Shown here: in pieces, positions 13,016 to 42,810 of the stretch | How positions within the stretch are numbered: the first letter of the stretch is position 1 | How the letters are laid out: the number at the start of each line of letters is the position of its first letter | NCBI GenBank assembly: GCA_025353015.1 | Contig: JANXRM010000464.1 | Location: forward strand, 1-42,810 | Reading direction: 5' to 3' | Length of the DNA: 42,810 nucleotides | DNA from: Hyphomicrobiales bacterium | GTDB lineage: Bacteria; Pseudomonadota; Alphaproteobacteria; Rhizobiales; Hyphomicrobiaceae | Notes under the pieces: model-generated | What the model was told of the DNA's origin: nothing | Seen by the model: the letters and a program-made list of their open reading frames with translations, nothing else | The model's database searches: none | Position numbers and translations under genes: made by a program

Positions 13016-13066
13016 AGCGTATCGGCGTCAAGCCAATTGCTGCGGTGCACAGCATCGATGCGCCAG

Positions 13067-13138
13067 CGTTTGAACTCTTAGCCGCGTTTGAACTCTTGGC
13101 CGCGTTTGAACTCTTGGCCGCGTTTGAACTCTGGGCCA
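13067..13138. repeat. 18-bp tandem repeat, 4 copies
   Basis: Four head-to-tail copies of cgtttgaactcttggccg. The first differs at one base (tta for ttg) and the last at two positions. The unit is a multiple of three, which is why frames stay open across it on both strands. No gene is assigned to it. Confidence 0.9.
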
Positions 13139-13292
13139 TAACAGTATTAAACATCGGCGCGATGTCTGTTGTGGGGCAATCACGTCGCCGCCAGTTCGCC
13201 GGCTCTCGGAGTAAAGCCGCCAAAGTCATTTGACGTGTGACTCGGCGCGTCAGTCTCGCTGATCCGAGCAACCGTACGTCGCCCCGCTGCGG

Positions 13293-27477: not shown

Positions 27478-27562
27478 CGGCCTGACGCAGGTCAAGCCCA
27501 TGTGTCGTTCAACGTTTATCAAGCGATGGCGCGAATTGGCGCGCAGAACGCAGGAGACATCC

Positions 27563-28054
27563 GTGACAACGCGTAATGCCGGTCTAGCCGTCGCCTTTAT
27601 TGCATGCATGACACCGACCGCCCTCCTGGCGCAGACGGCGGCACCCCCGGCGCATCAGCATCCCGCTCCCGCTGCGCAGCCGACGTCTGGCCTGCCCAAG
27701 GCGGGTGCGCCGACGACGGACGCATCGAAGGCGTACGAGGCGGCGGCCCAGACCATGCACAAGGACATGTCGTCGGAGTACACCAACGACGTCGATGTCG
27801 ATTTCGTGCGCGGCATGATTCCCCACCACCAAGGCGCGATCGACCAGGCCGAAATCCTGCTCAAATACAGCAAGAATCTTCGGCTTCGTCGTCTGGCCGG
27901 CGGTATCATCGCGTCGCAGCGTCGCGAAATCCGGTTCATGGTGAAGTGGCTCAAGGATCGCGAGCAGGGCATCGAGAGCAAGGATATGCCGGCGTGGCTG
28001 AGTAAAAATCCGTCGACTGTCGAAGACGCGAAGAAAACGGGCGATTTGGAGTGA
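27563..28054 (+). CDS. DUF305-family exported protein inside the box operon
   Basis: A 163-residue protein with a signal peptide (TTRNAGLAVAFIACMTPTALLAQ, cleavage near residue 23), a Pro/Ala/His linker (PPAHQHPAPAAQPT) and a DUF305 four-helix domain. The domain carries the conserved DFVRGMIPHHQGAIDQAE, whose Met-His-His pattern is a likely metal site. DUF305 proteins are exported, and some are linked to copper handling; no enzymatic role is established to my knowledge. The GTG at 27563 is chosen because of AGGAG with 6-base spacing and because the signal peptide begins there; the frame is open from 27500. Its stop codon overlaps the boxA start (GTGA), so it is translationally coupled to boxA. 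A periplasmic protein inside an operon of cytoplasmic CoA enzymes is odd. Confidence 0.85.
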   Translation: MTTRNAGLAVAFIACMTPTALLAQTAAPPAHQHPAPAAQPTSGLPKAGAPTTDASKAYEAAAQTMHKDMSSEYTNDVDVDFVRGMIPHHQGAIDQAEILLKYSKNLRLRRLAGGIIASQRREIRFMVKWLKDREQGIESKDMPAWLSKNPSTVEDAKKTGDLE

Positions 28055-29271
28055 CGAGCGCCGTGACGCTGGCAACTGAGGCCACCCTGCTCAAGCAGCA
28101 CCTGATCGATCCCGAGGTTTGCATTCGCTGTAACACCTGCGAGGCGACGTGTCCCGTGGGCGCGGTCACGCACGACGCCAACAATTACGTGGTCGATCCC
28201 GAGAAGTGCAATTTCTGCCTGGATTGCATCGCGCCGTGCCCGACGGGATCGATCGACAACTGGCGTGTCGTCGCCCGGGCCAAGTCCTATTCGGTGAACG
28301 AGCAATTCGGCTGGAACGAGCTGCCAAAGCAGGACGATCTCGGCGACGACGCTGCAGCGGCGGTGCAAGCAGTCGAGGACGAGGTTGAAAAACTGCTGGC
28401 TTCGGCGCACGCGGGCACCGGCGGCAAGGCGGTCGCGCCGCTATCGGCCTCCAAGCCGGCGATCAATCTCTATCGCCGCGACAAGGCGGCGGCGGCGGCC
28501 GTTCAGGGCAACTTCCGGATTACGGCGGCGGGCACGGAAAGCGATATCCGACACATCGTGCTGTCGTTCGGTGCGACGCAGTTCCCGGTGCTCGAAGGCC
28601 AGTCGATCGGCATCGTGCCGCCGGGCGTGCAGGCGAATGGGAAGCCGCATGATATCCGGCTCTACTCGGTGGCGTCGGCGCGGGACGGCGAGAAGCGCAA
28701 TGGCAACAATGTCGGCCTGACGATCAAGCGCGTCCAGAACGGCGTCGGCTCCAACTACATGTGCGACCTCAAGGTCGGCGACAAGGTTCAGGCGACGGGG
28801 CCCTTTGGCGCCACGTTTCTGATGCCGAACGACGCGAACGCGAATGTCGTCATGATCTGCACGGGAACAGGTTCCGCGCCCTTCCGCGCCTTCACCGAGC
28901 GCCGCCGCCGCGCGGCGCCCGGCGCGCCGGGCAAGTTCGTTCTTTTCTTCGGCGCCCGCACGCCGGAGGAGCTGCCTTATTTCGGCCCGTTGCAGAAAGT
29001 GCCGAACGCGATACTCGAAAAGCATCTCGTCTTCTCGCGCATTTCCGGCGCCGACAAGGAATATGTGCAGGACCGCGTCCGCAAGCGCGCCGACGACGTC
29101 GCGGCTTTGCTCGCTTCCGCGCAAACGCATATCTATATCTGCGGCCTCAAGGGCATGGAAAACGGCGTCGAGGAATCGCTCGCCGATGTCTGTCGCAAGC
29201 ATGGCCTCGACTGGAGCAAACTCAAGCCGGACATGCGCGCGCAGGGCAGGTTTCATGTCGAGACCTATTGA
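28051..29271 (+). CDS. boxA: Benzoyl-CoA 2,3-epoxidase, reductase subunit BoxA
   Basis: A 406-residue iron-sulfur flavoprotein that passes electrons from NADPH to BoxB. The N-terminal ferredoxin domain has two [4Fe-4S] motifs: Cys24, 27, 30 and 34 (CIRCNTCEATCP) and Cys53, 56, 59 and 63 (CNFCLDCIAPCP). A linker of about 80 residues follows. The rest is a ferredoxin-NADP reductase fold with the FAD motif IRLYSVASAR and the NADP-binding CTGTGSAPFRAF. The terminal YICGLKGMENGVEE and the C-terminal Tyr are also typical of that fold. It starts with GTG at 28051, overlapping the DUF305 stop by four bases; a second GTG at 28063 is possible. Benzoate-CoA ligase follows 32 bases later. Confidence 0.95.
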   Translation: MTSAVTLATEATLLKQHLIDPEVCIRCNTCEATCPVGAVTHDANNYVVDPEKCNFCLDCIAPCPTGSIDNWRVVARAKSYSVNEQFGWNELPKQDDLGDDAAAAVQAVEDEVEKLLASAHAGTGGKAVAPLSASKPAINLYRRDKAAAAAVQGNFRITAAGTESDIRHIVLSFGATQFPVLEGQSIGIVPPGVQANGKPHDIRLYSVASARDGEKRNGNNVGLTIKRVQNGVGSNYMCDLKVGDKVQATGPFGATFLMPNDANANVVMICTGTGSAPFRAFTERRRRAAPGAPGKFVLFFGARTPEELPYFGPLQKVPNAILEKHLVFSRISGADKEYVQDRVRKRADDVAALLASAQTHIYICGLKGMENGVEESLADVCRKHGLDWSKLKPDMRAQGRFHVETY

Positions 29272-29303
29272 CGCGGACCGGGGGCGAAACGGAGGGGCGC
29301 GGC

Positions 29304-30878
29304 ATGACTGACACGGAACGATTCTGGACGCCGCCTTCGTCGGGCTACAACGCGGCCGCCGACATGGTGGACCGCAATGTCCGGGAGGGGCGCGGCGCCA
29401 AGCTGGCGTTCATCGATCCAACGACGCGGATGACCTACGCGCAATTGCAGGAACGCTGCAACCGCGTCGCCAATGCGCTGCCGCGGCTCGGCGTATTGCG
29501 CGAGCAACGCGTCGTTCTGATCATGACCGACACCGTCGATCTGCCGGCGGTGTTCTGGGGCGCCGTCAAAGCCGGCGTTGTTCCGATTCCTCTCAACACC
29601 CTGCTGACGCCGGAACAATGGACTTACATGATCGAGGATTCGCGCGCCGAGGCCGTCGTCGTCTCAGCGGAATTGCTCGACCGCGTAGGACCGGTCGTCG
29701 ATGAAATTGCCCGGCGCCGCAAATTGCATGTCATCGTAAGCGGCGAGGCCGCCAGCGGCGGAACCTCCCTCGCCAGCCTGCTGTCCGCCAGCCCCGTGGA
29801 CGCGGCGACCGCCGACACGCACGCGGATGAAGTGGCGTTCTGGCTCTATTCATCCGGTTCGACAGGCGCGCCGAAAGGCACAAGACATCTGCACGCGAGC
29901 CCCATGCACACGGCGAAGCTGTTCGCGCAGGGCGTGCTCGGCTTTGGCCCCGACGACGTCGTATTTTCGGCGGCGAAACTGTTCTTCGCCTATGGCCTGG
30001 GGAACGCGATGTCGTTCCCCATGTCGGTTGGCGCGACGGCCGTGCTGCTGCCGGAACGGCCAACGCCCGACGCCGTCATGTCGGTCATGCGCGCCCATCG
30101 TCCCACTGTCTTTTGCGGCGTGCCAACGCTGTTCGCGGCGATGCTGGCGCACAAGGATCTTGGCCCCGGCGCCGGTTCCGATCGATTGCGCATCACCACG
30201 TCGGCTGGCGAAGCTTTGCCCGAAGATATTGGCTTGCGCTGGCAGGAGAAAGTCGGAACCGAGGTTGTCGACGGCATCGGCTCGACGGAGATGTTGCATA
30301 TCTTCGTGTCCAACCGGCCGGGCAATGTGCGCTATGGTTCTTCCGGCAAGCCGGTGCCCGGATACGAAGCGAAGCTGCTCGACGACGATGGCGGTCATGT
30401 GGCGCAAGGCGAGATCGGGGAACTCGTCGTCAAGGGACCTTCGTCCGCCGACGGGTACTGGCTGCAACGCGAAAAATCGCGCCGAACCTTTCGCGGCGAA
30501 TGGACCCACACGGGCGACAAGTACCGTATTGGAGACGACGGCTATTATTATTATTGCGGCCGCACCGACGACATGTTCAAGGTTTCCGGCATCTGGGTTT
30601 CGCCTTTCGACGTCGAGAGCGCGCTCATCACGCACAACGCGGTCCTGGAAGCCGCGGTCGTCGGCAAAGAAGACTCGGACGGGCTGATCAAACCCAAGGC
30701 TTTCGTCGTGTTGAAGCCGGGCGTCGCCGCCGATGAAAGTCTCCTTGAGGACCTCAAGGCGCATGTAAAGGCCAAAGCCGGCGCGTGGAAATATCCGCGC
30801 TGGATCGAAGTGCGCGCGGACTTGCCTAAAACCGCGACCGGCAAGATTCAGCGGTTCAAGCTGCGCGAGGAATCATAA
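29304..30878 (+). CDS. Benzoate-CoA ligase
   Basis: A 524-residue adenylate-forming enzyme that activates benzoate to benzoyl-CoA with ATP and CoA, the entry to the box route. The P-loop-like AMP motif is YSSGSTGAPKGTRHLH. The region KLFFAYGLGNAMSFPM is a hallmark of benzoate-CoA ligases and forms part of the acyl pocket. Further core motifs are DGIGSTEMLHIFVSN, HTGDKYRIGDDGYYYYCGRTDD and the C-terminal catalytic Lys in KTATGKIQRFKL. The ATG at 29304 has GGAGGG with 7-base spacing. It follows boxA and overlaps the next gene by one base (TAATG), so it is in the same operon. A 2-aminobenzoate or hydroxybenzoate ligase is possible but fits the context less well. The usual symbols are bclA or badA. 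Confidence 0.93.
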   Translation: MTDTERFWTPPSSGYNAAADMVDRNVREGRGAKLAFIDPTTRMTYAQLQERCNRVANALPRLGVLREQRVVLIMTDTVDLPAVFWGAVKAGVVPIPLNTLLTPEQWTYMIEDSRAEAVVVSAELLDRVGPVVDEIARRRKLHVIVSGEAASGGTSLASLLSASPVDAATADTHADEVAFWLYSSGSTGAPKGTRHLHASPMHTAKLFAQGVLGFGPDDVVFSAAKLFFAYGLGNAMSFPMSVGATAVLLPERPTPDAVMSVMRAHRPTVFCGVPTLFAAMLAHKDLGPGAGSDRLRITTSAGEALPEDIGLRWQEKVGTEVVDGIGSTEMLHIFVSNRPGNVRYGSSGKPVPGYEAKLLDDDGGHVAQGEIGELVVKGPSSADGYWLQREKSRRTFRGEWTHTGDKYRIGDDGYYYYCGRTDDMFKVSGIWVSPFDVESALITHNAVLEAAVVGKEDSDGLIKPKAFVVLKPGVAADESLLEDLKAHVKAKAGAWKYPRWIEVRADLPKTATGKIQRFKLREES

Positions 30879-32965
30879 TGATCGACGCATCGACATCGCC
30901 TGTGCGCATCGAATTTCACGACGGCGTTGCGCTCGTGTTGATCGACAATCCCCCCGTCAACGCAACGAGTCGGGCGGTGCGCGCGGGACTTCTCGAAGCG
31001 GTTCACAGCGCGCGGACGAATGTCGCGGTCAAGGCGCTGGTCATCGCCTGCGAGGGGCGCACATTCGTGGCGGGCGGCGACATCCGCGAATTCGGCAAAC
31101 CGCCGCTTGAACCGCTTTTGCCGGATGTGTGCGACGCCATCGAAACGTCCGCCAAGCCCGTCGTGGCGGCGCTGCATGGAACAGCGCTGGGCGGCGGATT
31201 TGAGATCGCGCTCGCCTGTCACGCGCGCGTCATGAACAACGATGCGCGAATTGGCCTGCCGGAAGTCAAGCTCGGCCTCATTCCCGGCGCCGGCGGCACG
31301 CAAAGATTGCCGCGCCTCGCGGGAATGCGGGCGGCGCTCGATATCATCGCAAGCGGACGACAGGTGAAGGCCGCCGAAGCGGTTTCTCTTGGCATCGCCG
31401 ATTGCGTCGCCGAAGGCGATTTACGCGGGGAAGCGATCGCTGTGGCGCGATCGCTCGTCGGCGCGCCGCTGCGGCGCATCGGTGAATTGGCGACGCCGGA
31501 CTTCGACGCGAAAGCCATCGAGGCCGCGCGCGGCGTCATCGAAAAAAAGGCGCGCGGCCAGATATCGCCCGTCAAAGCGGGCGAAATCGCCATGCTCGCG
31601 GCGACGCTTCCGTTGCGTCAAGGCCTCGCGCGAGAGCGAGCCATGTTTGTCGAGTTGATGGGTGGCGGCCAGTCCAGAGCTCTGCGCCACGCCTTTTTCG
31701 CCGAACGCGAAGCCTCGCGCGTTCCCGGCCTGGAGAACGCCGCGCCGCGCGCGTTCGAATCCATCGGCGTCGTCGGCGCGGGCACCATGGGCGCGGGCGT
31801 CGCCATTGCCCTGGCGGACGCCGGTCTGCGCGTCACCGTTGTCGAGACCGGCGCCGCAGCCCTTGAAGCGGGCCGGGCGCGCGTTCGATCGGCCTATGAA
31901 CGGCAAACAAAATCGGGCAGGATCGACGAAAGCCAATCCGCCGAGCGACAGGCGCGCATGGCCTTCGCCGAAGGGCTGGAAGCTTTATCGTCGTGCGACC
32001 TTGTCATCGAAGCGGTGTTCGAGGACATGGCGGTGAAGCAGGCGCTTTTTCGCCGCCTCGGCCTGATCGCCAAGTCCAGCGCGGTGCTCGCCACCAACAC
32101 GTCCTACCTCGATGTAAACGCCATCGCGGCCGCCAGCGGGCGCGCGCGGGACGTGATCGGGTTGCACTTCTTCGCGCCGGCCAACATCATGCGCCTGCTC
32201 GAAATCGCGCGCGGCGCGGACAGCTCTGCGGACGCCGTTGCGACTGGCCTGGCGCTCGCCAAACGCCTCGGAAAAATCCCGGTTGTCTGCGGCGTTTGCG
32301 ACGGATTCATCGGCAATCGCATTCTGGCGGCTTTTCGCGCGCAGGCGGAATTCGCCCTTGAGGACGGCGCCTTGCCGCACGAAGTGGACGCGGCCATGGA
32401 AGCGTTCGGTTTTCCGATGGGGCCTTTCGCTGTCTCCGACCTTTCCGGCCTCGACATCGCCTGGGCGCGGCGCAAACGGCTGGAGCCGTCGCGCGATCCG
32501 CAAACACGCTACGCCTCGCGCGTCGCCGACAGATTGTGCGCCATGGGCCGACTCGGCCAAAAGACAGGCGCCGGCTGGTATCGCTACGAGAGCGGCGAGC
32601 GCATTGTCGATCCCGTTGTGACCAAATTGATTGAGGACGTATCGGCGGAGTTCGCCATAAAGCGCGCGCCGATCGACGCGGAGACCATCCAGCGCAACAT
32701 TCGCGCCGCCATTGTCAACGAGGGCGCGAAAATTCTCGCGGAACGCGTCGCATCGCGCGCGCTCGACATCGACATGGCGATGATTCACGGCTTCGGCTAT
32801 CCGCCGTGGCGCGGGGGGCCGATGTTCGAAGCCGACGAAATCGGACTCCCGCTGGTGTTGAAGGATGTAGAGGCCGTCGCTCTGTCCTGTGGGCGCGGTT
32901 GGGAGCCGGCCCCCTTGCTCGTCGATCTCGCGCGAAGCAACCAGACGTTCGGAGCGACGGTTTAA
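30878..32965 (+). CDS. Bifunctional enoyl-CoA hydratase/3-hydroxyacyl-CoA dehydrogenase
   Basis: A 695-residue fusion of the FadB/FadJ or peroxisomal bifunctional type. Residues about 1-190 are the crotonase domain, with [34 protein letters not shown] (oxyanion hole) and [20 protein letters not shown] (catalytic Glu). Residues about 295-480 are the NAD-binding dehydrogenase domain, [18 protein letters not shown] and [19 protein letters not shown] with its active-site His. Two C-terminal dehydrogenase domains follow. The ATG overlaps the ligase stop by one base (TAATG). In this context it would hydrate and oxidise 3,4-dehydroadipyl-CoA or its isomer to 3-oxoadipyl-CoA; that substrate is inferred from operon position. 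It could instead serve general beta-oxidation. Confidence 0.9.
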
Positions 32966-32979
32966 TTCAGCGTCCCGAA

Positions 32980-33003
32980 GCGCTGGACCTCGGTTTCCAG
33001 CGC
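32980..33003. terminator. Weak hairpin between convergent genes
   Basis: GCGCTGGA (32980-32987) and TCCAGCGC (32996-33003) form a perfect 8-bp stem with an 8-base loop, 15 bases after the stop of the FadB-like gene. There is no T tract on either side, so it may only stabilise the 3' end of the transcript or help Rho-dependent termination. Confidence 0.35.
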
Positions 33004-33056
33004 GCTCGCATCCCGCAATGCGACGGTCACGCCGCTGCATTTCCAGGCCGCCGGCG

Positions 33057-34784
33057 TCAACCCTGTGGCGGACCGCCGCGATCGGCTTTGGCGACGTATT
33101 TCGGCTTCTTCTTTTTCTTCGGCGCGTCGTTCGCGACGACCTCGCCGTTGCCCGCCAGACGCTCGACGCGAATGTTCTCGCCGCCGGGCTTCTTCATGTT
33201 CTGTGCGAATTGCGCGGCCAGAGGCGCTGCGATTTCGAATTTGGTTTCATTGTCGAAAACGCGAATCGAACCAATATCCTGCTTGGTGACGCCGCCCTTG
33301 CGGCAAAGCATGGGGAGCAGCCATTTCGGGTCGGCGTTGCGGGTGCGCCCGATATCAAGACGGAACCAGACGCCGCCGCCCGCGACGCCGCGGTCGCGCT
33401 GCGGTTTGAAGCTTTTGGGCGGCGCGTCGCGTTGCTCGCGCGGCTCGCGGCCACGCCGCTCGGGCGGCGGCGTGCCGGGATCGCTCACATCCTCAACGGC
33501 CGGCAGGCGCGCGCGGTAGACGCGCACCAGCGCGGCGCCAAGCTGTTCGGCGGTGCGCTCGGAGAGCAAATGGCGCGCCAGTTCGATGTCCTCTTCCGAA
33601 CAGGGATCGGTCAAAAGCGGGTCTTGCAACATGCGTTCGCGGTCGAGCCTGCCGATGTCCTCGGCGGTCGGCGGCCCGCTCCAGGCGCAACGAATGCCGG
33701 CGTCGCGCAACAGCATCTCGGCTTTGCGGCGCCGCGAATCGGGAATGAGGATGGCGCTGACGCCTTTCTTGCCGGCGCGGCCGGTGCGCCCGCTGCGGTG
33801 CTGCAAGGCTTCCGCGTCGTTGGGCAGTTCCGCGTGGATGACGAGTTCACAACTGGGCAGATCGATGCCGCGCGCGGCGACATCGGTGGCCACGCAAACC
33901 CGCGCGCGTCCGTCGCGCAATGCCTGCATGGATTGATTGCGCTCATGCTGGCTGAGCTCGCCCGAGAGAAGCACGGAATTGAAGCCCCGCTCCTGCAGCG
34001 TCGCCTGCAGATGCCGCGTGGCTTCGCGCGTGTTGCAAAACACCATGGCGGTGCGCGCCTCGGCGAAGCGCAACAGGTTCACGACGGCGTGCTCGGTTTC
34101 CTTCGGCGCGACGCGGATGGCGCGATATTCGATATCGGCGTGGCCCTTCTCGCCGCCCGCGACATCGATGCGCAAGGCGTTGCGCTGGTAACGCCTGGCC
34201 AGCGCCGCGATGCCCTTGGGGATCGTCGCGGAGAACAACAGGGTGCGTCGGTCGTCCGGGGTCGCCTCGAGAATAAATTCGAGATCCTCGCGAAAGCCGA
34301 GGTCGAGCATTTCGTCGGCTTCGTCGAGAACGACGGCGGCGAGATCGGCGATGTTGAGCGCCCGGCGCTCGATATGGTCGCGCAGGCGTCCTGGCGTGCC
34401 CACGACGATGTGGACTCCGTCCATCAGCCTGCGGCGCTCGACCTTCGGGTCCATGCCGCCGACGCAGGCGACGATCCGCGCGCCCGTGTGCTCGTAAAGC
34501 CAGCGCAATTCGCGCTCCACCTGCAGGGCGAGTTCGCGCGTCGGCGCGATGATCAGCGCCAGCGGCGCGTTGCCGTCCAGAATCCGGCCGTCGGGATTGA
34601 GGATGCTGGCGGCGATCGCCATGCCATAGGCGACCGTCTTGCCCGACCCTGTCTGGGCGGAGACGACGATATCGCGGCCTTCGGCGTCCGGGGTCAGAAC
34701 GGCGGCCTGGACAGGAGTCGGTTCGTTGTATTGATGCTCGGCAAGGGCGCGAGCCAGCGTCGGGCTGGTTTCTAGAAAGGACAA
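33057..34784 (-). CDS. DEAD-box ATP-dependent RNA helicase, DeaD/DbpA-like
   Basis: A 575-residue RNA helicase. The core motifs are in order: the Q motif before residue 30 (YNEPTPVQAAVL), motif I SAQTGSGKTVAYG, PTRELALQ, GTPGRLRDHI, motif II DEADEMLD, SAT, and motif VI HRSGRTGRAG. The C-terminal quarter contains a DbpA-type RNA-binding fold (FRLDIGRTRNADPKWLLPML, GGVTKQDIGSIRVFDNETKFEIA) and a basic tail (KKKKKPKYVAKADRGG). Such enzymes remodel rRNA during ribosome assembly or unwind mRNA in the cold. The start is a TTG at 34784 with AAGG 7 bases upstream, and no ATG is available near the Q motif. It is convergent with the box operon and divergent from the cupin gene. Confidence 0.92.
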   Translation of the reverse strand: MSFLETSPTLARALAEHQYNEPTPVQAAVLTPDAEGRDIVVSAQTGSGKTVAYGMAIAASILNPDGRILDGNAPLALIIAPTRELALQVERELRWLYEHTGARIVACVGGMDPKVERRRLMDGVHIVVGTPGRLRDHIERRALNIADLAAVVLDEADEMLDLGFREDLEFILEATPDDRRTLLFSATIPKGIAALARRYQRNALRIDVAGGEKGHADIEYRAIRVAPKETEHAVVNLLRFAEARTAMVFCNTREATRHLQATLQERGFNSVLLSGELSQHERNQSMQALRDGRARVCVATDVAARGIDLPSCELVIHAELPNDAEALQHRSGRTGRAGKKGVSAILIPDSRRRKAEMLLRDAGIRCAWSGPPTAEDIGRLDRERMLQDPLLTDPCSEEDIELARHLLSERTAEQLGAALVRVYRARLPAVEDVSDPGTPPPERRGREPREQRDAPPKSFKPQRDRGVAGGGVWFRLDIGRTRNADPKWLLPMLCRKGGVTKQDIGSIRVFDNETKFEIAAPLAAQFAQNMKKPGGENIRVERLAGNGEVVANDAPKKKKKPKYVAKADRGGPPQG

Positions 34785-34984
34785 TGGGCTACCTTGGAGG
34801 CGAGAGGCGCCAGCGGCGGGATCGCGCGGCCGACGGGAAAAGCGCGCGGAACGAGTTGACCGATCCGCATTCTGGTGAGGTCTTTACGGCAGTCCGGGGC
34901 AAAGCGCCATCAAAGAGTCGGCAAAATTCCAATTTGCCATTAACAGACGACGACAAACCGGTTCCACCGCGCGACGAGCGAGCA

Positions 34985-35344
34985 ATGATTCAGTCTGAAA
35001 ATCTCTTTTCCAGCCCGTTTGATGGCGCAAATGGCGAGCATTTCATGGACATCCTGTCCGTTCCCGGAGTGCGGATCGAGCGCGTCGTCTCCACCGGGCA
35101 GGCGACGCCTGAGGGCGAATGGCTGGCGCAGGACTGGCTTGAATGGGTCGTTCTGTTGTCGGGAGCCGCTGCTCTGCGCGTGGAGGGCGAGCCCGAAGCG
35201 CGCGTGCTGAAACCGGGCGACTGGACGGCGTTGCCGGCCCAAACGCGGCATCGCGTCGAGTGGAGCGACGCGCGGACGCCCACCGTCTGGCTGGCGGTGC
35301 ATGTGGGCGAGCCGGCGAAGGACGCGCCAGCGGGCGCGCGATAG
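34985..35344 (+). CDS. Small cupin-domain protein
   Basis: A 119-residue single-domain cupin. It has the small beta-barrel pattern of the fold: EWVVLLSGAAALRVEGE, followed by KPGDWTALPAQTRHRVEWSD. The usual metal-binding His and Glu of cupin motif 1 are degenerate here, and only the His in TRHRV is clear, so catalysis is uncertain. No signal peptide is seen. I chose the ATG at 34985, where family-like sequence starts; the frame is open back to 34784 but with no protein character. It lies 13 bases before the TctC-type gene on the same strand, so the two likely form a pair. A sensor or isomerase role is possible; function unknown. Confidence 0.72.
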   Translation: MIQSENLFSSPFDGANGEHFMDILSVPGVRIERVVSTGQATPEGEWLAQDWLEWVVLLSGAAALRVEGEPEARVLKPGDWTALPAQTRHRVEWSDARTPTVWLAVHVGEPAKDAPAGAR

Positions 35345-35357
35345 ACGGGAGGCAAAC

Positions 35358-36398
35358 GTGCGGCGTTCGGGACGGTGGCTGGCGGCGGCTCTTGCGGGTT
35401 TGAGCGGAGCTTTGTCCGCGCAAGCGCAGAGCGTCGGAGAATTTTACAAAGGCCGAACGGTCAAGCTCGTCGTCGGCTCCTCGACCGGCGGCGGCACCGA
35501 CATCATGGCGCGGTTGCTGGCGCGGCACATGAGCAAATATATTCCCGGCAATCCCTCCATTGTCGTGCAAAACCAACCAGGAGGCGGCGGCATTGTCGGC
35601 GCCAACCGCATCGCCAACACGGCGGAGCGCGACGGCTCCGAGTTTGCCACCATGGAGCGCGCCATTCCGCAATTCGCCGTCATGGGCGATCCCAACGCGC
35701 GGTTTGATCCGCTGGCGCTGACGTGGATCGGCAGCCTGTCGTCCTATCGCGACGACGCCTTCATGCTGATCGTGAACGCCTCGCACAAGGTGAGGCGCGT
35801 GGACGAACTGCGGCAGCCCGGCGTTTCCATTCATGTCGGCGCGAGCCAGCAGGGGTCCACCAACCTTACCTTCGCGCTGATCGCCAAACAGGTGCTCGGC
35901 CTCCATGTCGAGACCATCTCGGGCTACGCGGGCTCGGCGAAAATAGCGCTCGCCATGCAGGCCGGCGAAGTCGACGGCGAACTGATTGGAATTGTGGCGG
36001 TCCAGGCCAGTCAGAAACACATGTGGGACAACAAGCTTGTGCGTCCGCTGGCGCAATTCGCGCGCAAGACGCGTCATCCCGATCTGCCCGATGTTCCCAC
36101 GGGCCGCGAACTCGTGCGCGCGCCGGAAGGCGCGGCTTTGCTCGAATTCGCCGAATTGCCTTTCTTCATGGCGCAGTCGTTTGTCGCTCCCGCCGGGGTG
36201 CCGCCCGAGCGCGCGGCGGCGCTGCGCGACGCTTTTCTACGCGCGACGCGGGACCCGGAATATGTCGCGGAAGCAAAGAAGCTCGAGATCGACAACAGCC
36301 CCATCGATCATCTGGAGATCGAAGCCCTGTTGCGCCGCGCCGCCGCAACGCCAAAGCCGGTGATCGCCGAGTTCGAAAGGCTGGTGAACCGTAGGTGA
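35358..36398 (+). CDS. TctC/Bug-family periplasmic substrate-binding protein
   Basis: A 346-residue exported binding protein of the tripartite tricarboxylate transporter (TctC/Bug) family, which binds organic acids in the periplasm. The signal peptide is MRRSGRWLAAALAGLSGALSAQAQ. The mature protein starts with SVGEFYKGRTVKLVVGSSTGGGTDIMARLLARH, the characteristic first ligand loop, followed by VVQNQPGGGGIVGANRIAN. The GTG at 35358 has GGGAGG 5 bases upstream. No TctA or TctB membrane genes are in the window, as is common for orphan Bug proteins that share a transporter elsewhere. Its ligand is unknown; an aromatic or sulfur-containing acid used by neighbouring genes is only a guess. Confidence 0.88.
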   Translation: MRRSGRWLAAALAGLSGALSAQAQSVGEFYKGRTVKLVVGSSTGGGTDIMARLLARHMSKYIPGNPSIVVQNQPGGGGIVGANRIANTAERDGSEFATMERAIPQFAVMGDPNARFDPLALTWIGSLSSYRDDAFMLIVNASHKVRRVDELRQPGVSIHVGASQQGSTNLTFALIAKQVLGLHVETISGYAGSAKIALAMQAGEVDGELIGIVAVQASQKHMWDNKLVRPLAQFARKTRHPDLPDVPTGRELVRAPEGAALLEFAELPFFMAQSFVAPAGVPPERAAALRDAFLRATRDPEYVAEAKKLEIDNSPIDHLEIEALLRRAAATPKPVIAEFERLVNRR

Positions 36399-36429: not shown

Positions 36430-37824
36430 TCACTTGCCGGCGCGAACGCTTGCCCGCGCCGCGCGCGCGCCGGGATGCGCGTCGCTCAATCTGTCGCCGC
36501 GCCCGAACAATTTGTTGCGCATGGCGCCTTCGCCGTAGGCCGTCTTGTAATAGCCGCGGTTTTGCAATTCGGGCACCACGAGATCGACGATGGAGGCGAG
36601 GCCGTCGGGCTCGACGGTGCGCACGAAATTGAACCCATCGATGCCGGTTTCCTCGATCCATTCAATCATGGCGTTGGCGACGGTCGAGGGCGAGCCCACG
36701 AGAAAGACGCCGGCGGTCGGCGAATCCGCTCGAAAGGCGGTGAGGTCCTTCACGCGAAACTCACGCCCTTTGCTGAGAATTGTAATGCGTTCGATGAACG
36801 ACCGATTGGCGTCGTTCTTCACGTATTCGACGGGATCGTCCGGATCGTATTTCGAAAAATCGATCCCCGCCAGGCCGGAAAAAACCGAAAGGCTGCCGCG
36901 CACGTCGAGATATGGCCGTATCGCTTCATATTTTTCCCGCGCCTCCTTGTCGGTGGGCGCGACAATCACGGTGGAGCCCACGATGACCGCGACATCGCCG
37001 GGATCGCGGCCGTTGTCCTTCATGCGGAGGCGAATGTCGTCGACGTGGCCCCGCGCCATCTGCTTGGTGAAACTTGTCAGGAAGACGCATTCGGCGTGTC
37101 TGGCGGCGAAGGCGCGCCCGCGCGTCGAGGCGCCGGCCTGAAAGAGCACCGGAGTGCGTTGCGGCGAGGGCTCGCACATGTGCACGGCGGAGACGCGAAA
37201 ATTCGCGCCCGCATGATCGATGCGATGGACTTTGTCGGGCCGCGCGAAAATCCGGCTGGCGCGGTCGCGCAGCACAGCGTCGTCCTCCCAACTGGCCTCC
37301 AGCAGCTTGTAGACGACCTCCATATATTCGTCGGCCATGTCGTAGCGCGCGTCGTGCTCCTGGACGCGGTCGAGCCCGATGGCGCGCGCGCCGGAATCGA
37401 CGAAGCCCGCGACGATGTTCCAGCCGACGCGGCCGCGCGTCAGATGGTCGAGGGTCGACAGGCGCCTCGCCATGATGAAGGGATGCTCGTAGGTGAGATT
37501 GATGGTGACGCCGAAGCCCAGCCCCTGCGTCGCCATGGCTATGGCGGGAATAGCCAGCGTCGGGTCGTTCATCGGCGCCATGGCTCCAGCGCGCAGGGCT
37601 TCCGAGGGATCGCCGCCGTATTTGTCCATCAGACCGATAGAATCGGCGAAAAATATGCTGTCGAACAGGCCGCGTTCGGCGACCTTCGCCAGCTCCAGGT
37701 AATAATCGAGCGTGTTGTAACGCAGCCCCTGATCGTCGGGGTGTCCCCACATGCCCGCCCATTGTTGACTGGGCGAGCACATGTGAAAGGCGTTGAACAG
37801 GATTTTCTTGCGCTTTTGATTCAT
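36430..37824 (-). CDS. LLM-class FMN-dependent monooxygenase (NtaA/SnaA/DszA-like)
   Basis: A 464-residue bacterial luciferase-like monooxygenase. It is FMNH2-dependent and needs a separate flavin reductase, which is not in the window. The N-terminus MNQKRKKILFNAFHMCSPSQ and the segment FFADSIGLMDKYGGDPSEALR are typical of the nitrilotriacetate/DszA/dimethylsulfone group. So are RLSTLDHLTRGRVGWNIV and VLFQAGASTRGRAFAARHAECVF. Known relatives cleave C-N or C-S bonds of nitrilotriacetate, dibenzothiophene sulfone or small sulfones. The ATG at 37824 lacks a clear ribosome site and lies 16 bases after the stop of the propeller protein, so it may rely on coupling. It is the last gene of the six-gene minus-strand block. 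The exact substrate is unknown. Confidence 0.9.
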   Translation of the reverse strand: MNQKRKKILFNAFHMCSPSQQWAGMWGHPDDQGLRYNTLDYYLELAKVAERGLFDSIFFADSIGLMDKYGGDPSEALRAGAMAPMNDPTLAIPAIAMATQGLGFGVTINLTYEHPFIMARRLSTLDHLTRGRVGWNIVAGFVDSGARAIGLDRVQEHDARYDMADEYMEVVYKLLEASWEDDAVLRDRASRIFARPDKVHRIDHAGANFRVSAVHMCEPSPQRTPVLFQAGASTRGRAFAARHAECVFLTSFTKQMARGHVDDIRLRMKDNGRDPGDVAVIVGSTVIVAPTDKEAREKYEAIRPYLDVRGSLSVFSGLAGIDFSKYDPDDPVEYVKNDANRSFIERITILSKGREFRVKDLTAFRADSPTAGVFLVGSPSTVANAMIEWIEETGIDGFNFVRTVEPDGLASIVDLVVPELQNRGYYKTAYGEGAMRNKLFGRGDRLSDAHPGARAARASVRAGK

Positions 37825-37840
37825 GCGGCGGCGCGCCCGG

Positions 37841-39676
37841 CTACGGCGCCGACCGCGTCTTCAGATCGGCGATGTCCGCCTCGCTGCGAAAGGTCATGAC
37901 CGCAACCTTGCTGGTGCGCGAATAGGGCAGCACGACCTGCAACTTGCCGTCCTTCTCCAGCAGCGAAATGTAACGCGCCTCGGTGCCGCGCGTCGGCAGA
38001 TCGTAGGTCGTCCATTGCTTGCCGGCGGGATCGTATTTGAGGATCACGTCCGAGGTCCAGATATTGAGCCAGGCGTTGTGGCCGCTGTCGACGGCGACAT
38101 GATAGGGCTGCATCAGGCCGGGGCCGGGCAGCGGCACGAAACTCGTCTCCATCGTGTGCGTGTCGATGCGCGCCAGCGAGCCGCCCCATGAATTGCCGAC
38201 CCAGAGCACGTCGGCGTTCTTGTCCGTGCCCATGCGGCGCGGCCCCTGATTCCACGGCGCCGGCTGGTTGAAATCGGCCGAGACGTATTTCTCGTAGAAG
38301 GCGCGCTGCGCGTCGTTGATCTGCTCCTTGTCCACGGCGACGCGCGGCAGTTTCAGTTCCAGCGACTTGCCGGTGGCGATGTCGCCCTTGCCGATCATGT
38401 CGATGGTCATTTCCGCCCACCAGCCATTGCCGTCGCGGTCGCCCGCCGCGCCATAGGTGACGCCGTTGCCGTTCGCGGTCTTGAAGGTGAGCGATTTGAA
38501 CTCGGTGAATTTCTGCGTCTCGGGATCAAAGCGCAGGGCGCCCTCCGGCGCCGACGACCAGATCTGCCCCTTGCCGTCCCAGTCGACGGTCGTGGCGCCG
38601 CCCGTCGGCTGCATGCCCTGGGGCGGAACGAAAACTTCGATCTGGTTGGTTTTAGGATCGACCTTGCCGAGGCTGCCGCGCCCGGTGTTTACGTTGAACC
38701 ACATGATGCCCTTGGGATCGCGCGTGATGCCGTGGGTGTTGCCGGCAAAGCCGTTCTGCCCGTTGACGCGCATGAACTCGACCGCGCCCGTCTGCGCGTT
38801 GATCTTGCCGATGCTCATTTTGCGGTTCGGCACGTTGGAGGTAAACCAGAGATTGCCGTCGAGATCGGCGAAGGCGTCGTGCACCAGCGAGCCGATGCGC
38901 GAAGGCGTGCCAAGCGACCAGTCGGCGCCGTCGTTGACGGGATATTTCGACGGCATGCCGGCGTCTTCCTGAACGGGTACGTCATATTCCTTGAAGACGA
39001 CGCGCGCGTTCTCGCCCGAAGGGCGGGGACGCAGCTTGATCTTCATCGAAGTTTCACCGGGGCCGCGCGCGTGGGCGAGATAGGCGGCGAGTTCCTTCTG
39101 GTTGAAGTCGAGATGGCCGTTTATCTTGTCCTCGCCCTGATAGATGCCGGAAACGTTGACCTTCTTCATGAGATCGATGATGCGGCTCCAGCCGGCTTCG
39201 TCGAATTTGTGCTGCAACGTGTAGCTTGGCGTGTGGCATCCCGTGCAATTGTTGCGCACCAGCGCCTGCAGGCGCGCCTCCTCCGGCGTCGCGTTGGGCA
39301 GGGACGCGGCGATGAGATCGCCCGGCAATTGCCGCACAAAATCCGTCAGCGCGTCGAGGGTGAAATCCTGTTTCCTGTTGGCGCCGAGATCGACTTCGCC
39401 TTTGGCTGTCGCAAAGGTCAGGGCCTGCGCCCAGACGCGATATTTTCCCGAGGGCAGGGGCGGAAAATAATAGCCGCCGTTTTCGTCGGTAAAGACCGTC
39501 GTCGTGATCGTGCCGCCGTCGGGCTTGGCGGAAACCGTGACGCCGCCAAGTTTTTCGCCGGCGACGGACTTGATGTTGCCGCTGAGCAGCGCGTCGGCGG
39601 CGAAGGCGGGGAGCGAGGCGCCGAGGCCGATAACCGCGGCGAGGGCGGCGAGGGAAACGTTGCTTGCGTGTTTCAT
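37841..39676 (-). CDS. Periplasmic fusion: carboxypeptidase-regulatory-like domain, haem c motif, Vgb-like beta-propeller
   Basis: A 611-residue exported protein. The signal peptide ends at about residue 27 (PAFAADA). Residues about 30-110 are a carboxypeptidase regulatory-like/CNA-B type beta-sandwich (GNIKSVAGEKLGGVTVSAKP, ENGGYYFPPLPSGKYRVWA). A single haem-binding CTGCH is at 144-148, in a cytochrome c-like segment of about 90 residues. From about 220 on, repeated blades (DLDGNLWFTSNVPNRKMSIGKIN, DPKGIMWFNVNTGRGSLGKVD, DGKGQIWSSAPEGALRFDP) form a virginiamycin B lyase-like propeller. The gene has AAGGAG 8 bases upstream and follows the small cytochrome c gene by 29 bases. It probably transfers electrons from an oxidation reaction or binds a substrate in the periplasm. 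True streptogramin lyase activity is unlikely given the haem domain. Confidence 0.85.
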   Translation of the reverse strand: MKHASNVSLAALAAVIGLGASLPAFAADALLSGNIKSVAGEKLGGVTVSAKPDGGTITTTVFTDENGGYYFPPLPSGKYRVWAQALTFATAKGEVDLGANRKQDFTLDALTDFVRQLPGDLIAASLPNATPEEARLQALVRNNCTGCHTPSYTLQHKFDEAGWSRIIDLMKKVNVSGIYQGEDKINGHLDFNQKELAAYLAHARGPGETSMKIKLRPRPSGENARVVFKEYDVPVQEDAGMPSKYPVNDGADWSLGTPSRIGSLVHDAFADLDGNLWFTSNVPNRKMSIGKINAQTGAVEFMRVNGQNGFAGNTHGITRDPKGIMWFNVNTGRGSLGKVDPKTNQIEVFVPPQGMQPTGGATTVDWDGKGQIWSSAPEGALRFDPETQKFTEFKSLTFKTANGNGVTYGAAGDRDGNGWWAEMTIDMIGKGDIATGKSLELKLPRVAVDKEQINDAQRAFYEKYVSADFNQPAPWNQGPRRMGTDKNADVLWVGNSWGGSLARIDTHTMETSFVPLPGPGLMQPYHVAVDSGHNAWLNIWTSDVILKYDPAGKQWTTYDLPTRGTEARYISLLEKDGKLQVVLPYSRTSKVAVMTFRSEADIADLKTRSAP

Positions 39677-39705
39677 GGCGAAGTCTCCTTGGGGCGGGCG
39701 CGGGA

Positions 39706-40062
39706 TCAGCGTTGGGTGGAGGCGGGCGCGGGTTGCGGCGGCAGCGCCATAACGTAGGAGGCGATGAAGCCGATCTGTTCGGGCGAGAATTGATATTTGA
39801 AACCAGGCATGCGCGGCGTGCCCTCGGAGATCACCTGCCGCATGGCCGAATCATTGCCGCTGACGGATTCCTTCGACAGCGCGGGCGCGAATTGCGGCGC
39901 GGTGATTTGCGGCTTGAGATGGCAGACGCCGCAGGACTGGTAGAAAAGCTTCTGGCCGTCGCGCTGCGTGGCGGTGAGGGTTTCGGGCGCGGGCGCGTTT
40001 TGCGCCGCCGCCGCCCCGATGGCCGTCAGAATGAAAGACGCGGTCAATGCGATGCGGTTCAT
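39706..40062 (-). CDS. Small exported class I cytochrome c
   Basis: A 118-residue periplasmic cytochrome c. The signal peptide is MNRIALTASFILTAIGAAAA. The haem site is CGVCH at 44-48, and the axial Met is probably in GTPRMPGF. The C-terminal helix EQIGFIASYVMALP is typical. The ATG at 40062 follows AGGGAG closely and starts the signal peptide; the longer frame to 40215 is not supported. It precedes the haem-containing propeller protein by 29 bases, so the two are a likely electron-transfer pair feeding a terminal oxidase. Its gap to the preceding binding-protein gene (124 bases) is the largest in the block and could hold a second promoter. Confidence 0.9.
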   Translation of the reverse strand: MNRIALTASFILTAIGAAAAQNAPAPETLTATQRDGQKLFYQSCGVCHLKPQITAPQFAPALSKESVSGNDSAMRQVISEGTPRMPGFKYQFSPEQIGFIASYVMALPPQPAPASTQR

Positions 40063-40186
40063 CAAACGAACTCCCTGAAAGCCCGCGCTGGTTTGCCGTC
40101 GGCTTGACCGACGCCGCCGGCGCTTTTGTTCAGGCCACACTGGCGCCAAACAAGCCTCGCTGCAAGGACGGAGTTTCAACGGGGTT

Positions 40187-41161
40187 TCAACGCGGCAGAT
40201 AGGCCGCGTCGACAAACCGCGAGGGCCTGTAATCGTCGCCCGTTTTGAAATCGCCCATCTCGATCAAGGTGCCGATCAGCAGCTCGATCTGCCTGTCCGG
40301 CAAGTCGAGCGACTTGTCGAACGGTTTCAGGTCCTTCGCGTAATAATCCCAGGAGCGCAACGCGTTCGGCTTGTCGAGCTTCGTCGGCGGCATCAGGATG
40401 TCGGCGCACGCCTCGCGGTTGGCGGGATCGTAAAAGAACGGGATGGCGCGGGACACAGCGCGCAAAAACCCCTTCATCGCGCCTTCGTTCTTCGCTATCC
40501 AGTCGGGCCGCGCGACGACGGCGCTGAAGCCGTATTCGCGGGCGCGGGCGCCAAGATCGAGCAGGCGGTGGAAGCCGTCCGTTTCCGCCATCCAGTCGAA
40601 TGGCTGGCCGAGCACCGCCGCCTGCGCCGTGCGGCTTTTCAACGCGGCGAAGCGGTTCGGCGTGGCGGGATCGTAGACCTGATCGACATCGGCCGCCTTC
40701 ATGCCGTTCTCGACGAGCCAGCGGTTCCAGAACACGGTGATCAAACTTTTCGCCAGCGGCAGCACCACGGTCTTGCCCTTCATGTCGGCCGCCGATTTAA
40801 CGTCCCGGCTCGACATGATCATGTAGGGATAGCCGCGCATGATCGAGCCCACGAGCTTTAACGGCGCTTCGTTGACGATGGCGCGCACGCCGGTCTCGTA
40901 GGTCGTCACGCCGATGTCGAAATTGCCGGCGACGGTCTGCTGCGCCACGGCCGGATTTGATCCCGTATAGACGGTTTCGACGGCGAGGCCTTCGTCGCGG
41001 AAATAGCCCTTTTTGTCGGCGATGTAGATTGGCCAGGCGAAGGGCAGCGCGGACGTGTCGCCAAGGCGAATGACGCGCGTCTGCGCGATGGCCGGCGCGG
41101 CGAGGCCAAGCCCCGCGCTGGCGGCGGCGCCGCCCAAAAATGCCCGTCTGGACGCACGCAT
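40187..41161 (-). CDS. Tat-exported ABC transporter substrate-binding protein (SsuA/NMT1-like)
   Basis: A 324-residue periplasmic binding protein of the nitrate/sulfonate/taurine (SsuA/TauA) type. The N-terminus MRASRRAFLGGAAASAG is a twin-arginine signal (SRRAFL), with cleavage after AIA near residue 26. The mature part begins with VIRLGDTSALPFAWPIYIADKKGYFRDEGLAVE, the usual first lobe, and later NFDIGVTTYETG and DVKSAADMKGKTVVLP. The ATG at 41161 has GGGGAG 6 bases upstream, and the gene starts 14 bases after the ferredoxin stop. Permease and ATPase genes are not in the window but could lie beyond the right edge. A sulfonate or related organic ligand is plausible from family and context only. 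Confidence 0.88.
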   Translation of the reverse strand: MRASRRAFLGGAAASAGLGLAAPAIAQTRVIRLGDTSALPFAWPIYIADKKGYFRDEGLAVETVYTGSNPAVAQQTVAGNFDIGVTTYETGVRAIVNEAPLKLVGSIMRGYPYMIMSSRDVKSAADMKGKTVVLPLAKSLITVFWNRWLVENGMKAADVDQVYDPATPNRFAALKSRTAQAAVLGQPFDWMAETDGFHRLLDLGARAREYGFSAVVARPDWIAKNEGAMKGFLRAVSRAIPFFYDPANREACADILMPPTKLDKPNALRSWDYYAKDLKPFDKSLDLPDRQIELLIGTLIEMGDFKTGDDYRPSRFVDAAYLPR

Positions 41162-41175
41162 GGCTTTCTCCCCGT

Positions 41176-41457
41176 TCAGTATCGTTTGGCGCCCGCTTCG
41201 GGCGCGAGCACCAGCTGTTCATCGGCGAGATCGGCGTAGACGCTGCGGTGCCGGTGATTGGCGAGCGAATGATCGAGGCTGATGGCCCGGGGCTTGCAAT
41301 CCTCGACGCAAAGAAAGCAAACGTGGCAATCCTCGGGATACGTCACGACGGCCTTGCCGCCCGCCGCGTCCATGCGCATGACGTCCGTCGGGCAGATGGT
41401 CACGCAGCGCGCGCATCCATCGCACAGGCTTGCGTCGATGATCACCGGGCTGTTCAT
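41176..41457 (-). CDS. 2x[4Fe-4S] ferredoxin, AprB-like partner
   Basis: A 93-residue ferredoxin. The first cluster motif is Cys12, 15, 18 and 22 (CDGCARCVTICP) and the second is Cys44, 47, 50 and 54 (CHVCFLCVEDCK), so it carries two [4Fe-4S] clusters. A polar tail of about 35 residues follows. The layout is like the iron-sulfur beta subunit of adenylylsulfate reductase, though it is shorter than typical AprB. There is no export signal, so it is cytoplasmic. It starts 18 bases after the flavoprotein stop and should be its electron partner. The ribosome site is AAAGGAC, about 10 bases upstream of the ATG. Confidence 0.92.
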   Translation of the reverse strand: MNSPVIIDASLCDGCARCVTICPTDVMRMDAAGGKAVVTYPEDCHVCFLCVEDCKPRAISLDHSLANHRHRSVYADLADEQLVLAPEAGAKRY

Positions 41458-41475
41458 GCGCGCGCCGCGTCCTTT

Positions 41476-42810
41476 TCAGCTGTATGTTTCGGGCTTGTAG
41501 GTCCCATCCATGATCGCGGCGATGGGACTTGGATATTTGTCGCGCATGGCGGGCGGTTTCAAGGCGCCGTCGAGGGGGATTTCCCGCCGGTCGAAGCGGG
41601 CGCCCTCCTGCGTCAACGTCAGCCCATGCCAGCAGAACCACGCGTGGTCGTCGGTGTCGGGATAGTCCTCGCGGTAAAATTGCTCGCGGCTTTCGGTGCG
41701 GTCGAGGGCGGAAAGGTAGATGGCTTCGGCGGTTTGCGCGATGTTGGCGGCTTCGTTGAGTTTTACAAGATCATGCAGGCTGCCCGCCTTCGTCACGCGC
41801 GTCGCCGCGTGCAACTCGCGGGCGCGCTCGGTCATGTGTTCGAGCTTGCGTCCGTTCATCCGCATGGTGTCGATCACGGAGGCTTCAAGCGCGCTCAAAC
41901 CATCGTGAATGAGATCGGGCGTCAGCGTCGAGGCGGCGCGCGTCAACGGCGCCATCGTCGTCTCCGCGAGATCGTCGACGAGGCCCTTCGGCAGCGCGGG
42001 AAAATCGACGCGGGCGGCTTCCCGCGCCGCGCTTTCGCCGGCGAAGTAACCTGAATTCATGGAATAGGCGGTCGGCACGCCGGCGCTCGCATGGGTGCCG
42101 GTCGCGAGATTTTTCGACGCGACGCCGGCGGCGAGAAGGCGCGGCAGGCTTGAACGGCAGTCGAGATCGATGGAGACGCCGCTGCGGCCGCCGTTCCACA
42201 AGCCCCACGTCGGCTCGACGGCGAGCGGAAACACTTTCGCGTTCGGCACTTTGTTCGACAGCAGGATATTCTGGCCGCGTCCCGCCGAAAGCGCGGCGAT
42301 GTCGGTCCAGTAGCTTTCGTCGCAATGGCGCAAGTCGACATAAACCGGCCCGCGCCCGTCGACCATTTCCTTCACGAAAGCGGCGACGACGCGGTTGAGC
42401 TCGCTGCGCTCGAAGCGCACGGGGTCGTATTTCTCCATGAAGCGCTCGCCGCGCGCGTTGACGAGCCGCGCGCCGTGGGCGATGGCCACATTGTAGCTGC
42501 CGAAATTGAACTCGCGCATGAGATGCGAAAATGTGCCGCCGAACGAAAACTCAAGATCGACGAGCCGCGCGCCCGTGCGATACGCCATGGCCGCGCCGTC
42601 GCACACGACGTTGTCGATGCCGTGCGTGCCCTTCATCGACATCGCGCCCGTGGCGATGATGGTCTGTTTCGCGCGCACGGCGAGGCAACGCCCGGTGCGC
42701 GCGTCGAAACCAAAAGCTCCGGCGACCTCGCCGCGCGTCGGCATTTGTCCGTCGCTTGTCATCAGGTCCGTGACGCACACGCGGTCGATGACGCGCGCGC
42801 CGCGGGCGAC
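41476..42810 (-). CDS. AprA/FrdA-superfamily FAD flavoprotein, N-terminus outside window
   Basis: The last 444 residues of a flavoprotein of the fumarate reductase/succinate dehydrogenase/adenylylsulfate reductase alpha superfamily. The visible part starts within the FAD domain (QTIIATGAMSMKGTHG) and contains VEPTWGLWNGGRSGVSIDLDCRSSLPRLLAAGV. The FAD-closing motif reads ATGTHASAGVPTAYSMNSGYFAGESAA, closer in plan to AprA than to succinate dehydrogenase. The C-terminal helical domain is complete (LSALEASVIDTMRMNGRKLEHM, YREDYPDTDDHAWFCWHGLTL). The frame is open to the right edge, so the first part, with the dinucleotide-binding glycines, is not seen. It heads the visible part of the block and pairs with the ferredoxin. 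Whether it acts on APS/sulfite or another substrate is unknown. Confidence 0.88.
   Translation of the reverse strand, partial: VARGARVIDRVCVTDLMTSDGQMPTRGEVAGAFGFDARTGRCLAVRAKQTIIATGAMSMKGTHGIDNVVCDGAAMAYRTGARLVDLEFSFGGTFSHLMREFNFGSYNVAIAHGARLVNARGERFMEKYDPVRFERSELNRVVAAFVKEMVDGRGPVYVDLRHCDESYWTDIAALSAGRGQNILLSNKVPNAKVFPLAVEPTWGLWNGGRSGVSIDLDCRSSLPRLLAAGVASKNLATGTHASAGVPTAYSMNSGYFAGESAAREAARVDFPALPKGLVDDLAETTMAPLTRAASTLTPDLIHDGLSALEASVIDTMRMNGRKLEHMTERARELHAATRVTKAGSLHDLVKLNEAANIAQTAEAIYLSALDRTESREQFYREDYPDTDDHAWFCWHGLTLTQEGARFDRREIPLDGALKPPAMRDKYPSPIAAIMDGTYKPETYS

Follow-up and report, generated by a model that had tools for sequence, protein, structure and literature searches.

A six-gene redox, binding-protein and monooxygenase run at the end of a Hyphomicrobiales contig

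Pairing of a fumarate-reductase-family FAD protein with a small two-[4Fe-4S] ferredoxin is a design known from the 3'-phosphoadenosine 5'-phosphosulfate (PAPS) reductase of Methanothermococcus thermolithotrophicus (structure 8a8o, MtPAPSR) and from dissimilatory AprBA; according to the excerpted text of PMC10322725, MtPAPSR retains its catalytic residues. The XoxF-XoxG-XoxJ system brings together a periplasmic propeller enzyme, a cytochrome c and a binding-protein-like component (sections of PMC7391723 and PMC10875860), and XoxF function requires both XoxG and XoxJ (PMC7391723, same sections). TctC-type orphan binding proteins are known, from a partial text, in the TTT/TctC expansions of Rhodoplanes and Bordetella (PMC5994714). 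The run of genes considered here recalls each of these systems in part. It occupies the right end of the window, i.e. the whole 42,810-nucleotide (nt) stretch analysed, which is one entire contig (G000:C473:1-42810) of an assembly that has 530 contigs, is 92% complete and is probably a metagenome-assembled genome (MAG).

The run consists of six co-directional minus-strand open reading frames (ORFs), which encode, 5' to 3', a flavoprotein, a ferredoxin, an NMT1 binding protein, a cytochrome c, a haem-propeller fusion and a luciferase-like monooxygenase (LLM), labelled P0001 to P0006. These places and families had been proposed in a sequence-only reading of the contig, and the ORF list and the Pfam and NCBIfam assignments agree with the labels of all six proteins. 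The same reading placed five of the six genes within 30 bases of the next; the intergenic gaps are in fact 18, 14, 124, 29 and 16 nt, four of the five being under 30. A promoter scan of the sequence returned 0 sites, and the six terminator-like sites found, against 7.7 expected, are uninformative. No description of the gene set was found in a literature search limited to open-licence PubMed Central (PMC) texts.

The reading that we favour, tentatively and at somewhat less than an even chance, is that the run forms one catabolic system, built of two recurring modules and one oxygenase, for a single organic substrate that is probably aromatic or ring-derived. Its observed basis is the protein families, the tight co-directional order, the export-type N-termini judged by inspection in P0003, P0004 and P0005, the recurrence of the modules and a neighbour cassette that they share. 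Module A, a cytoplasmic flavoprotein-ferredoxin heterodimer with the architecture of dissimilatory adenosine 5'-phosphosulfate (APS)/PAPS reductase and an apparently different active site, would reduce or oxidise a pathway intermediate by two electrons, which would pass via the two [4Fe-4S] clusters. Module B would comprise, in the periplasm, an orphan binding protein, the small cytochrome c and the haem-propeller fusion. The propeller domain of the fusion may act there on the substrate, with electrons moving from the propeller to the fusion's own haem and from there, by way of the small cytochrome c, to an oxidase; the binding protein would deliver substrate or product. The LLM enzyme would add one oxygen in the cytoplasm with reduced flavin mononucleotide (FMN).

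The flavoprotein-ferredoxin pair

The flavoprotein gene (P0001, 41476..42810, minus strand; FAD_binding_2 and Succ_DH_flav_C in Pfam) is incomplete because the window is a whole contig and the gene runs into its end, where the 5' part is lost. Full-length relatives have ~580-590 residues compared with 444 in the window, so that ~140 N-terminal residues are gone; a search for them in the rest of the genome gave no more than a match of 22%. The partner ferredoxin (P0002, 41176..41457, minus strand; Fer4) shows two CxxCxxCxxxC motifs on inspection. A scan of 84,980 species genomes for P0001, which used exact peptide patterns and may miss relatives, gave 251 relatives, the best 80 of which were kept. 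Four of them are at 54-59% identity (L003-L006), all in MAGs filed under Hyphomicrobiales, Rhizobiales or Beijerinckiaceae, and the next (L010, Chloroflexi) is at 36%. Within the same genus, family and order, 59 other genomes had no P0001 homologue at E<=1e-30, and plasmid records contain flavoprotein matches in 111, the best 25 of the 111 at 30% identity or less. A ferredoxin homologue directly follows the flavoprotein in all five other close copies (L003-L006 and L145), the last of these being a second pair (57% and 59%) in G991.

A profile built from five full-length relatives together with P0001 found its best match in the M. thermolithotrophicus PAPS reductase alpha subunit (187 bits), followed by succinate dehydrogenases. 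When the full-length relative in L006 was modelled and used for a fold search, 8a8o likewise ranked first, at ~20% identity, although the model is poor (pLDDT 59, TM ~0.54 and root-mean-square deviation ~15 to the best hits) and gives a weak fold check only. Pfam, the profile search and the fold search with this poor model thus all indicate a fumarate-reductase-family FAD subunit. In the HMMER alignment to 6lum, four stretches that we take to be catalytic in succinate dehydrogenase and fumarate reductase (SDH/FRD) are altered: FHPT becomes GGTF, the R of RDIV becomes L, PTCHY becomes PTWGL and GANRLG becomes GTHASA. The presumed His/Arg set of these enzymes for dicarboxylate binding and proton transfer is replaced. 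The His of GGHGQAG in 8a8o, presumably catalytic, aligns with Ser or other residues in the flavoproteins.

The window pair thus shares the two-protein make-up of PAPS reductase and AprBA and departs from them in its low identity, in the replaced GGHGQAG His and in scores far under the Apr cut-offs. Against the aprA model the truncated flavoprotein scores 34.9 (cut-off 641.75) and against PRK06854 87.6 (cut-off 557); a full-length relative also stays below, at 69.4 and 142.4, respectively, and the ferredoxin reaches 41.6 on aprB, for which the cut-off is 135.65. Every Apr, Sdh and Frd model listed is missed by a wide margin. We read the flavoprotein as an Apr/Frd-fold enzyme of an uncharacterised subfamily, with an active site that appears unlike that of either SDH/FRD or PAPS reductase.

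The cytochrome, the haem-propeller fusion and the binding protein

The NMT1-type solute-binding protein (P0003, 40187..41161, minus strand) begins with SRRAFLG on inspection, which fits what we take to be the twin-arginine translocation (Tat) motif. It had been called SsuA/NMT1-type, of which the SsuA part is not sustained by its score of 48.6 bits against the SsuA cut-off of 163.5. The mono-haem cytochrome c (P0004, 39706..40062, minus strand; Cytochrome_CBB3) is followed by the haem-propeller fusion (P0005, 37841..39676, minus strand), in which CarboxypepD_reg is joined to one CxxCH motif found by inspection (CTGCH) and to a Vgb-like beta-propeller. The propeller passes the Pfam Vgb_lyase gathering cut-off marginally (53.0 versus 50), in likeness to virginiamycin B lyase (Vgb). 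Unlike Vgb, P0005 has a haem motif and a different genomic setting, and it reaches only 26.1 of the 600 required by the NCBIfam Vgb(A) streptogramin lyase model. A Pfam scan of P0005 detected no pyrroloquinoline quinone (PQQ) family, and a single-sequence AlphaFold model of the protein (mean pLDDT 35) was not used.

In each of the six close copies of the fusion (the window, L097, two in L098, L099 and L100) the gene immediately 5' is a homologue of P0004. L097 holds orthologues of the binding protein, the cytochrome and the fusion in the same order as the window (78, 67 and 84% identity), and its 14 kb contain no match to the flavoprotein, the ferredoxin or the LLM. Homologues of P0005 were found in none of 248 order genomes (E<=1e-60), 384 class genomes (1e-30) and 397 phylum genomes (1e-20), three draws that overlap. 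Plasmid records gave six fusion matches at 21-24%; of three such contexts viewed, two have no similar cluster annotated and the third, L181, carries no annotation.

With 23 matched stretches in G991 and 8 in G992, CarboxypepD_reg-cytochrome c-propeller proteins appear to be a large family of paralogues in these two genomes; among their neighbours (L101, L102, L104, L168-L180) are Rieske, LLM, cupin, DctP and molybdopterin proteins. At L173:8485-12434 a fusion-family ORF is followed by an Fe-S protein and a molybdopterin oxidoreductase whose domain resembles pyrogallol hydroxytransferase (AhtL-like). At L174:4050-6844 an LLM gene (Bac_luciferase) stands directly before a distant fusion paralogue, the called ORFs overlapping by 4 nt, which gives a second instance, after the window, of an LLM adjoining such a fusion.

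The grouping of a propeller protein, a cytochrome c and an adjoining binding-protein fold in one run, in both the window and L097, is that of XoxF-XoxG-XoxJ, and no permease or ATPase gene was found within the six-gene run by ORF list and Pfam, its upstream side ending at the contig edge. The periplasmic trio could then be a self-standing dehydrogenase of the XoxF-XoxG-XoxJ type, with the binding protein as activating partner and not as part of a transporter, much as XoxF needs XoxG and XoxJ (PMC7391723, in part), and with the flavoprotein pair and the LLM handling its product. We regard this as improbable, since the P0005 propeller matches Vgb and not PQQ models and the protein has its own haem motif and CarboxypepD_reg, and since in half of the six close copies, namely the two of L098 and the one of L099, no binding protein lies on the same strand within 700 nt. 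Moreover, the analogy is confined to the window and L097, because same-strand adjacency of a binding protein across the fusion paralogues is not above background, as detailed below. The frequency of binding-protein genes in G991, a sampled relative, is very high, as in the orphan TTT/TctC expansions of the partial text cited above (PMC5994714); unlike those TctC-type proteins, P0003 belongs to the NMT1 family and stands in a run with cytochrome genes.

A farther-reaching variant, to which we give little credence, is that the fusion would be a new kind of PQQ-free oxidoreductase of the periplasm, linked to cytochromes and partnered, on the pattern of XoxF-XoxG-XoxJ, by the small cytochrome c and a dedicated binding protein. 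It would be coupled to a new Apr/Frd-fold flavoprotein-ferredoxin reductase with a third kind of active site.

The LLM monooxygenase and the proposed organosulfur chemistry

The sixth gene (P0006, 36430..37824, minus strand; Bac_luciferase/TIGR03860) encodes a clear member of the FMN-dependent NtaA/DmoA family, scoring 501.6 on TIGR03860 with a cut-off of 279.7. Among solved structures it matches dimethyl sulfide (DMS) monooxygenase (437.6 bits), LadA alkane monooxygenase (408.5), HcbA1 (332) and riboflavin lyase (281), and its alignments to 6ak1 and 3b9n extend over almost the whole protein. Cleavage of C-S or C-N bonds, as the sequence-only reading had it, is not implied by these matches because LadA scores nearly as high as DMS monooxygenase. 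The family score and the near full-length alignment are shared with DmoA and LadA; the locus differs from them in that no flavin reductase was found among the seven right-end proteins scanned, and the matches of P0006 would span C-S, C-H and C-Cl chemistry. Genus mates carry P0006 homologues of 49-51%, and plasmid records contain LLM matches in 1264, the best at 52%.

Uptake of a sulfonate, sulfone or thioether, its cleavage by the LLM and oxidation of the sulfite by the Apr-like pair was the pathway first suggested for the run. Several affinities point that way: the best solved relatives are DMS monooxygenase 6ak1 for the LLM and PAPS reductase for the flavoprotein, P0003 weakly matches SsuA/SaoX, a neighbour in relatives is nearest to 4-sulfomuconolactone hydrolase (166 versus a cut-off of 500), and a thiamine pyrophosphate (TPP) enzyme in relatives has low matches to sulfoacetaldehyde acetyltransferase (83.9 versus 676). 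However, the sulfur-specific models are all far under cut-off, the GGHGQAG His is lost, LadA and HcbA1 also match the LLM strongly, and no sulfur gene was recognised among the chosen neighbour proteins scanned. The organosulfur pathway was rejected as leading reading on the sub-cut-off models, the lost His and the LadA-level LLM match, and it is weakened further because other catalytic positions are altered, the neighbours are ring-cleavage-like and the LLM does not travel with the rest; we hold it to be improbable. The cytochrome parts, the binding protein, the FMN monooxygenase and the Apr/Frd-fold pair of the proposed block stand as members, and the organosulfur specificity does not.

Linkage of the modules and origin of the block

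The single catabolic system that we favour draws on the genes that surround its modules elsewhere. A VOC-FAH-TctC cassette is conserved in three genomes (VOC 73-76%, FAH 67-75%, TctC 72% or 52%), with MarR (72%) in two of the three and PPOX (73%) in two of the three. It adjoins the flavoprotein-ferredoxin pair in G991 (L004) and G992 (L005), and in G993 (L099) it lies ~1.2 kb from the cytochrome-fusion pair, the two being separated by an NMT1-like ORF of the opposite strand. TctC genes are present in the neighbourhoods of flavoprotein relatives, and the L004 contig also holds FAD_binding_3, Amidohydro_2, Glyoxalase-domain, VOC and FAH genes. The Amidohydro_2 protein is the one nearest to the 4-sulfomuconolactone hydrolase model, and the Glyoxalase-domain protein is nearest, below cut-off, to catechol 2,3-dioxygenase and kin (extradiol). 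An Isochorismatase-family hydrolase gene follows the fusion in G992 and G993, the two being 68% identical and the G992 protein having an apparent signal peptide at its start. Two Isochorismatase-family genes were in fact seen near each of these cytochrome-fusion pairs (L099:3143-4414 and L100:6378-8833), with export-type N-termini by eye in at least two of the four.

The fusion is also present in three of the four genomes behind L003-L006, namely G991 (84%, 60%, 59%), G992 (56%) and G993 (56%), and in none of the order, class and phylum draws (Fisher tests, p < 2e-6), a comparison of related genomes in which the four were selected for the flavoprotein and searched for the fusion at the looser limit of 1e-5. 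Despite that limit, the five fusion hits named in G991-G993 are all below 1e-220. The fusion was not found in the Chloroflexi genome G994. The flavoprotein-ferredoxin and cytochrome-fusion pairs, being conserved elsewhere, are more than chance neighbours, and they are linked across genomes. Absence of the gene order elsewhere, which the sequence-only reading had named as its refutation, holds for the full six in the genomes examined and not for the sub-modules, which recur. The shared cassette, together with the window's own joining of the two modules in a single run, is moderate evidence for one system.

A number of points weigh against it. Among the genomes examined the full six-gene order was seen only on this contig; G990, which has the flavoprotein, has no fusion; the Chloroflexi flavoprotein copy L010 has no ferredoxin match; and no P0006 relative was found at E<=1e-100 in G990-G994. 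The co-occurrence genomes are four Hyphomicrobiales MAGs, and shared ancestry could explain the co-occurrence. The catalytic steps, their order and the substrate class are ones that we infer, the last from neighbours in other genomes. Finally, these genomes are rich in catabolic and binding-protein genes, and this background is high. With home-made hidden Markov models and crude ORF calls, 17 of 24 fusion ORFs (from G000, G991, G992 and G993) had a binding protein at a distance of up to 3 kb, versus 56 of 125 background genes (45%; p 0.025), a bare excess that becomes 16 of 23 (p 0.04) when one doubly counted L173 ORF is removed. No enrichment was seen for LLM or Rieske genes within 3 kb (3/24 versus 19/125), and in a comparison that still counts the L173 ORF twice same-strand binding proteins were not significantly more frequent at up to 200 nt (2/24 versus 7/109) or 700 nt (5/24 versus 12/109). 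The 125 genes come from 14 of 20 G991 stretches. Of the six left out, one is the remainder of the L097 contig and five are on contigs that match the window; those kept still include contigs that match it more weakly (C300, C375) and the beginning of C343, a contig with a fusion. The rule suggested by eye, that every haem-propeller fusion adjoins a binding protein and an oxygenase, was not upheld by these tests.

Such a background, an LLM that does not travel with the other genes and a contig whose right end is of another lineage than its left would suit an accidental adjacency, in which unrelated catabolic genes without a common substrate were stacked by rearrangement or assembly. Between 10 and 30 kb each of the genus mates G001-G003 gives six to seven matches to the window (E<=1e-60, 68-84%), compared with a single one in G991 and another in G992, and from ~33 kb, the LLM gene excepted, the best DNA matches among those listed for the seven genomes searched are in G991 (68-83%). 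A helicase gene that serves as lineage marker (33057..34784, minus strand; DEAD-box by inspection) is 78% identical to that of G991 versus 57-58% to those of G002 and G003, G001 giving no match at the limit used; a second copy elsewhere in G000 is at 59%. A two-class tetranucleotide classifier (21 G000 and 43 G991 chunks, the latter including stretches picked for matching the window; cross-validated accuracy 1.0) gives a probability of G991-like origin of 0.007-0.17 for chunks ending by 27 kb, then 0.38 and 0.57, and 0.71-0.76 from 29.4 kb. Because the DNA matches, the duplicate helicase and the classifier all shift along the contig, it appears that the block is horizontally acquired or the contig chimeric, the right part to 42810 being like the Hyphomicrobiales MAG G991.

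The switch falls at ~27.5-33 kb (27475-33057), however, outside the block, within which 4.9-kb chunks resolve no change of composition. The gaps in the run are 14-29 nt save the one of 124, the sub-module pairs are conserved and the cassette is shared. Accidental adjacency is for these reasons unlikely, though it deserves to be taken seriously beside the single catabolic system.

On the other side of the LLM gene, a TctC-type solute-binding protein gene (35301..36398, plus strand) converges on it, 31 nt apart, and has a 78.5% orthologue in L146. The small protein gene that adjoins it (34784..35344, plus strand) is cupin-like by eye only, and a 60% homologue (119 residues) stands beside the L146 TctC orthologue. 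Farther away, the ORF at 12952-13233 encodes a short repeated peptide (ELLAAF several times) and is possibly a tandem repeat or spurious.

The haem-propeller fusion is multi-copy in some Hyphomicrobiales MAGs, and the flavoprotein cautions that an AprA/FrdA-like annotation need not mean sulfur or fumarate metabolism. If the linkage holds, two uncharacterised families, the Apr/Frd-fold flavoprotein and the haem-propeller fusion, would share one catabolic route and could be tested together, and the run would offer a concrete case for the role of orphan binding proteins in alphaproteobacteria, a question raised for the TctC type in the partial text of PMC5994714. Were the doubtful XoxF-like variant true, the orphan binding proteins of such genomes would, at least some of them, serve periplasmic enzymes as partners and not be parts of transporters.

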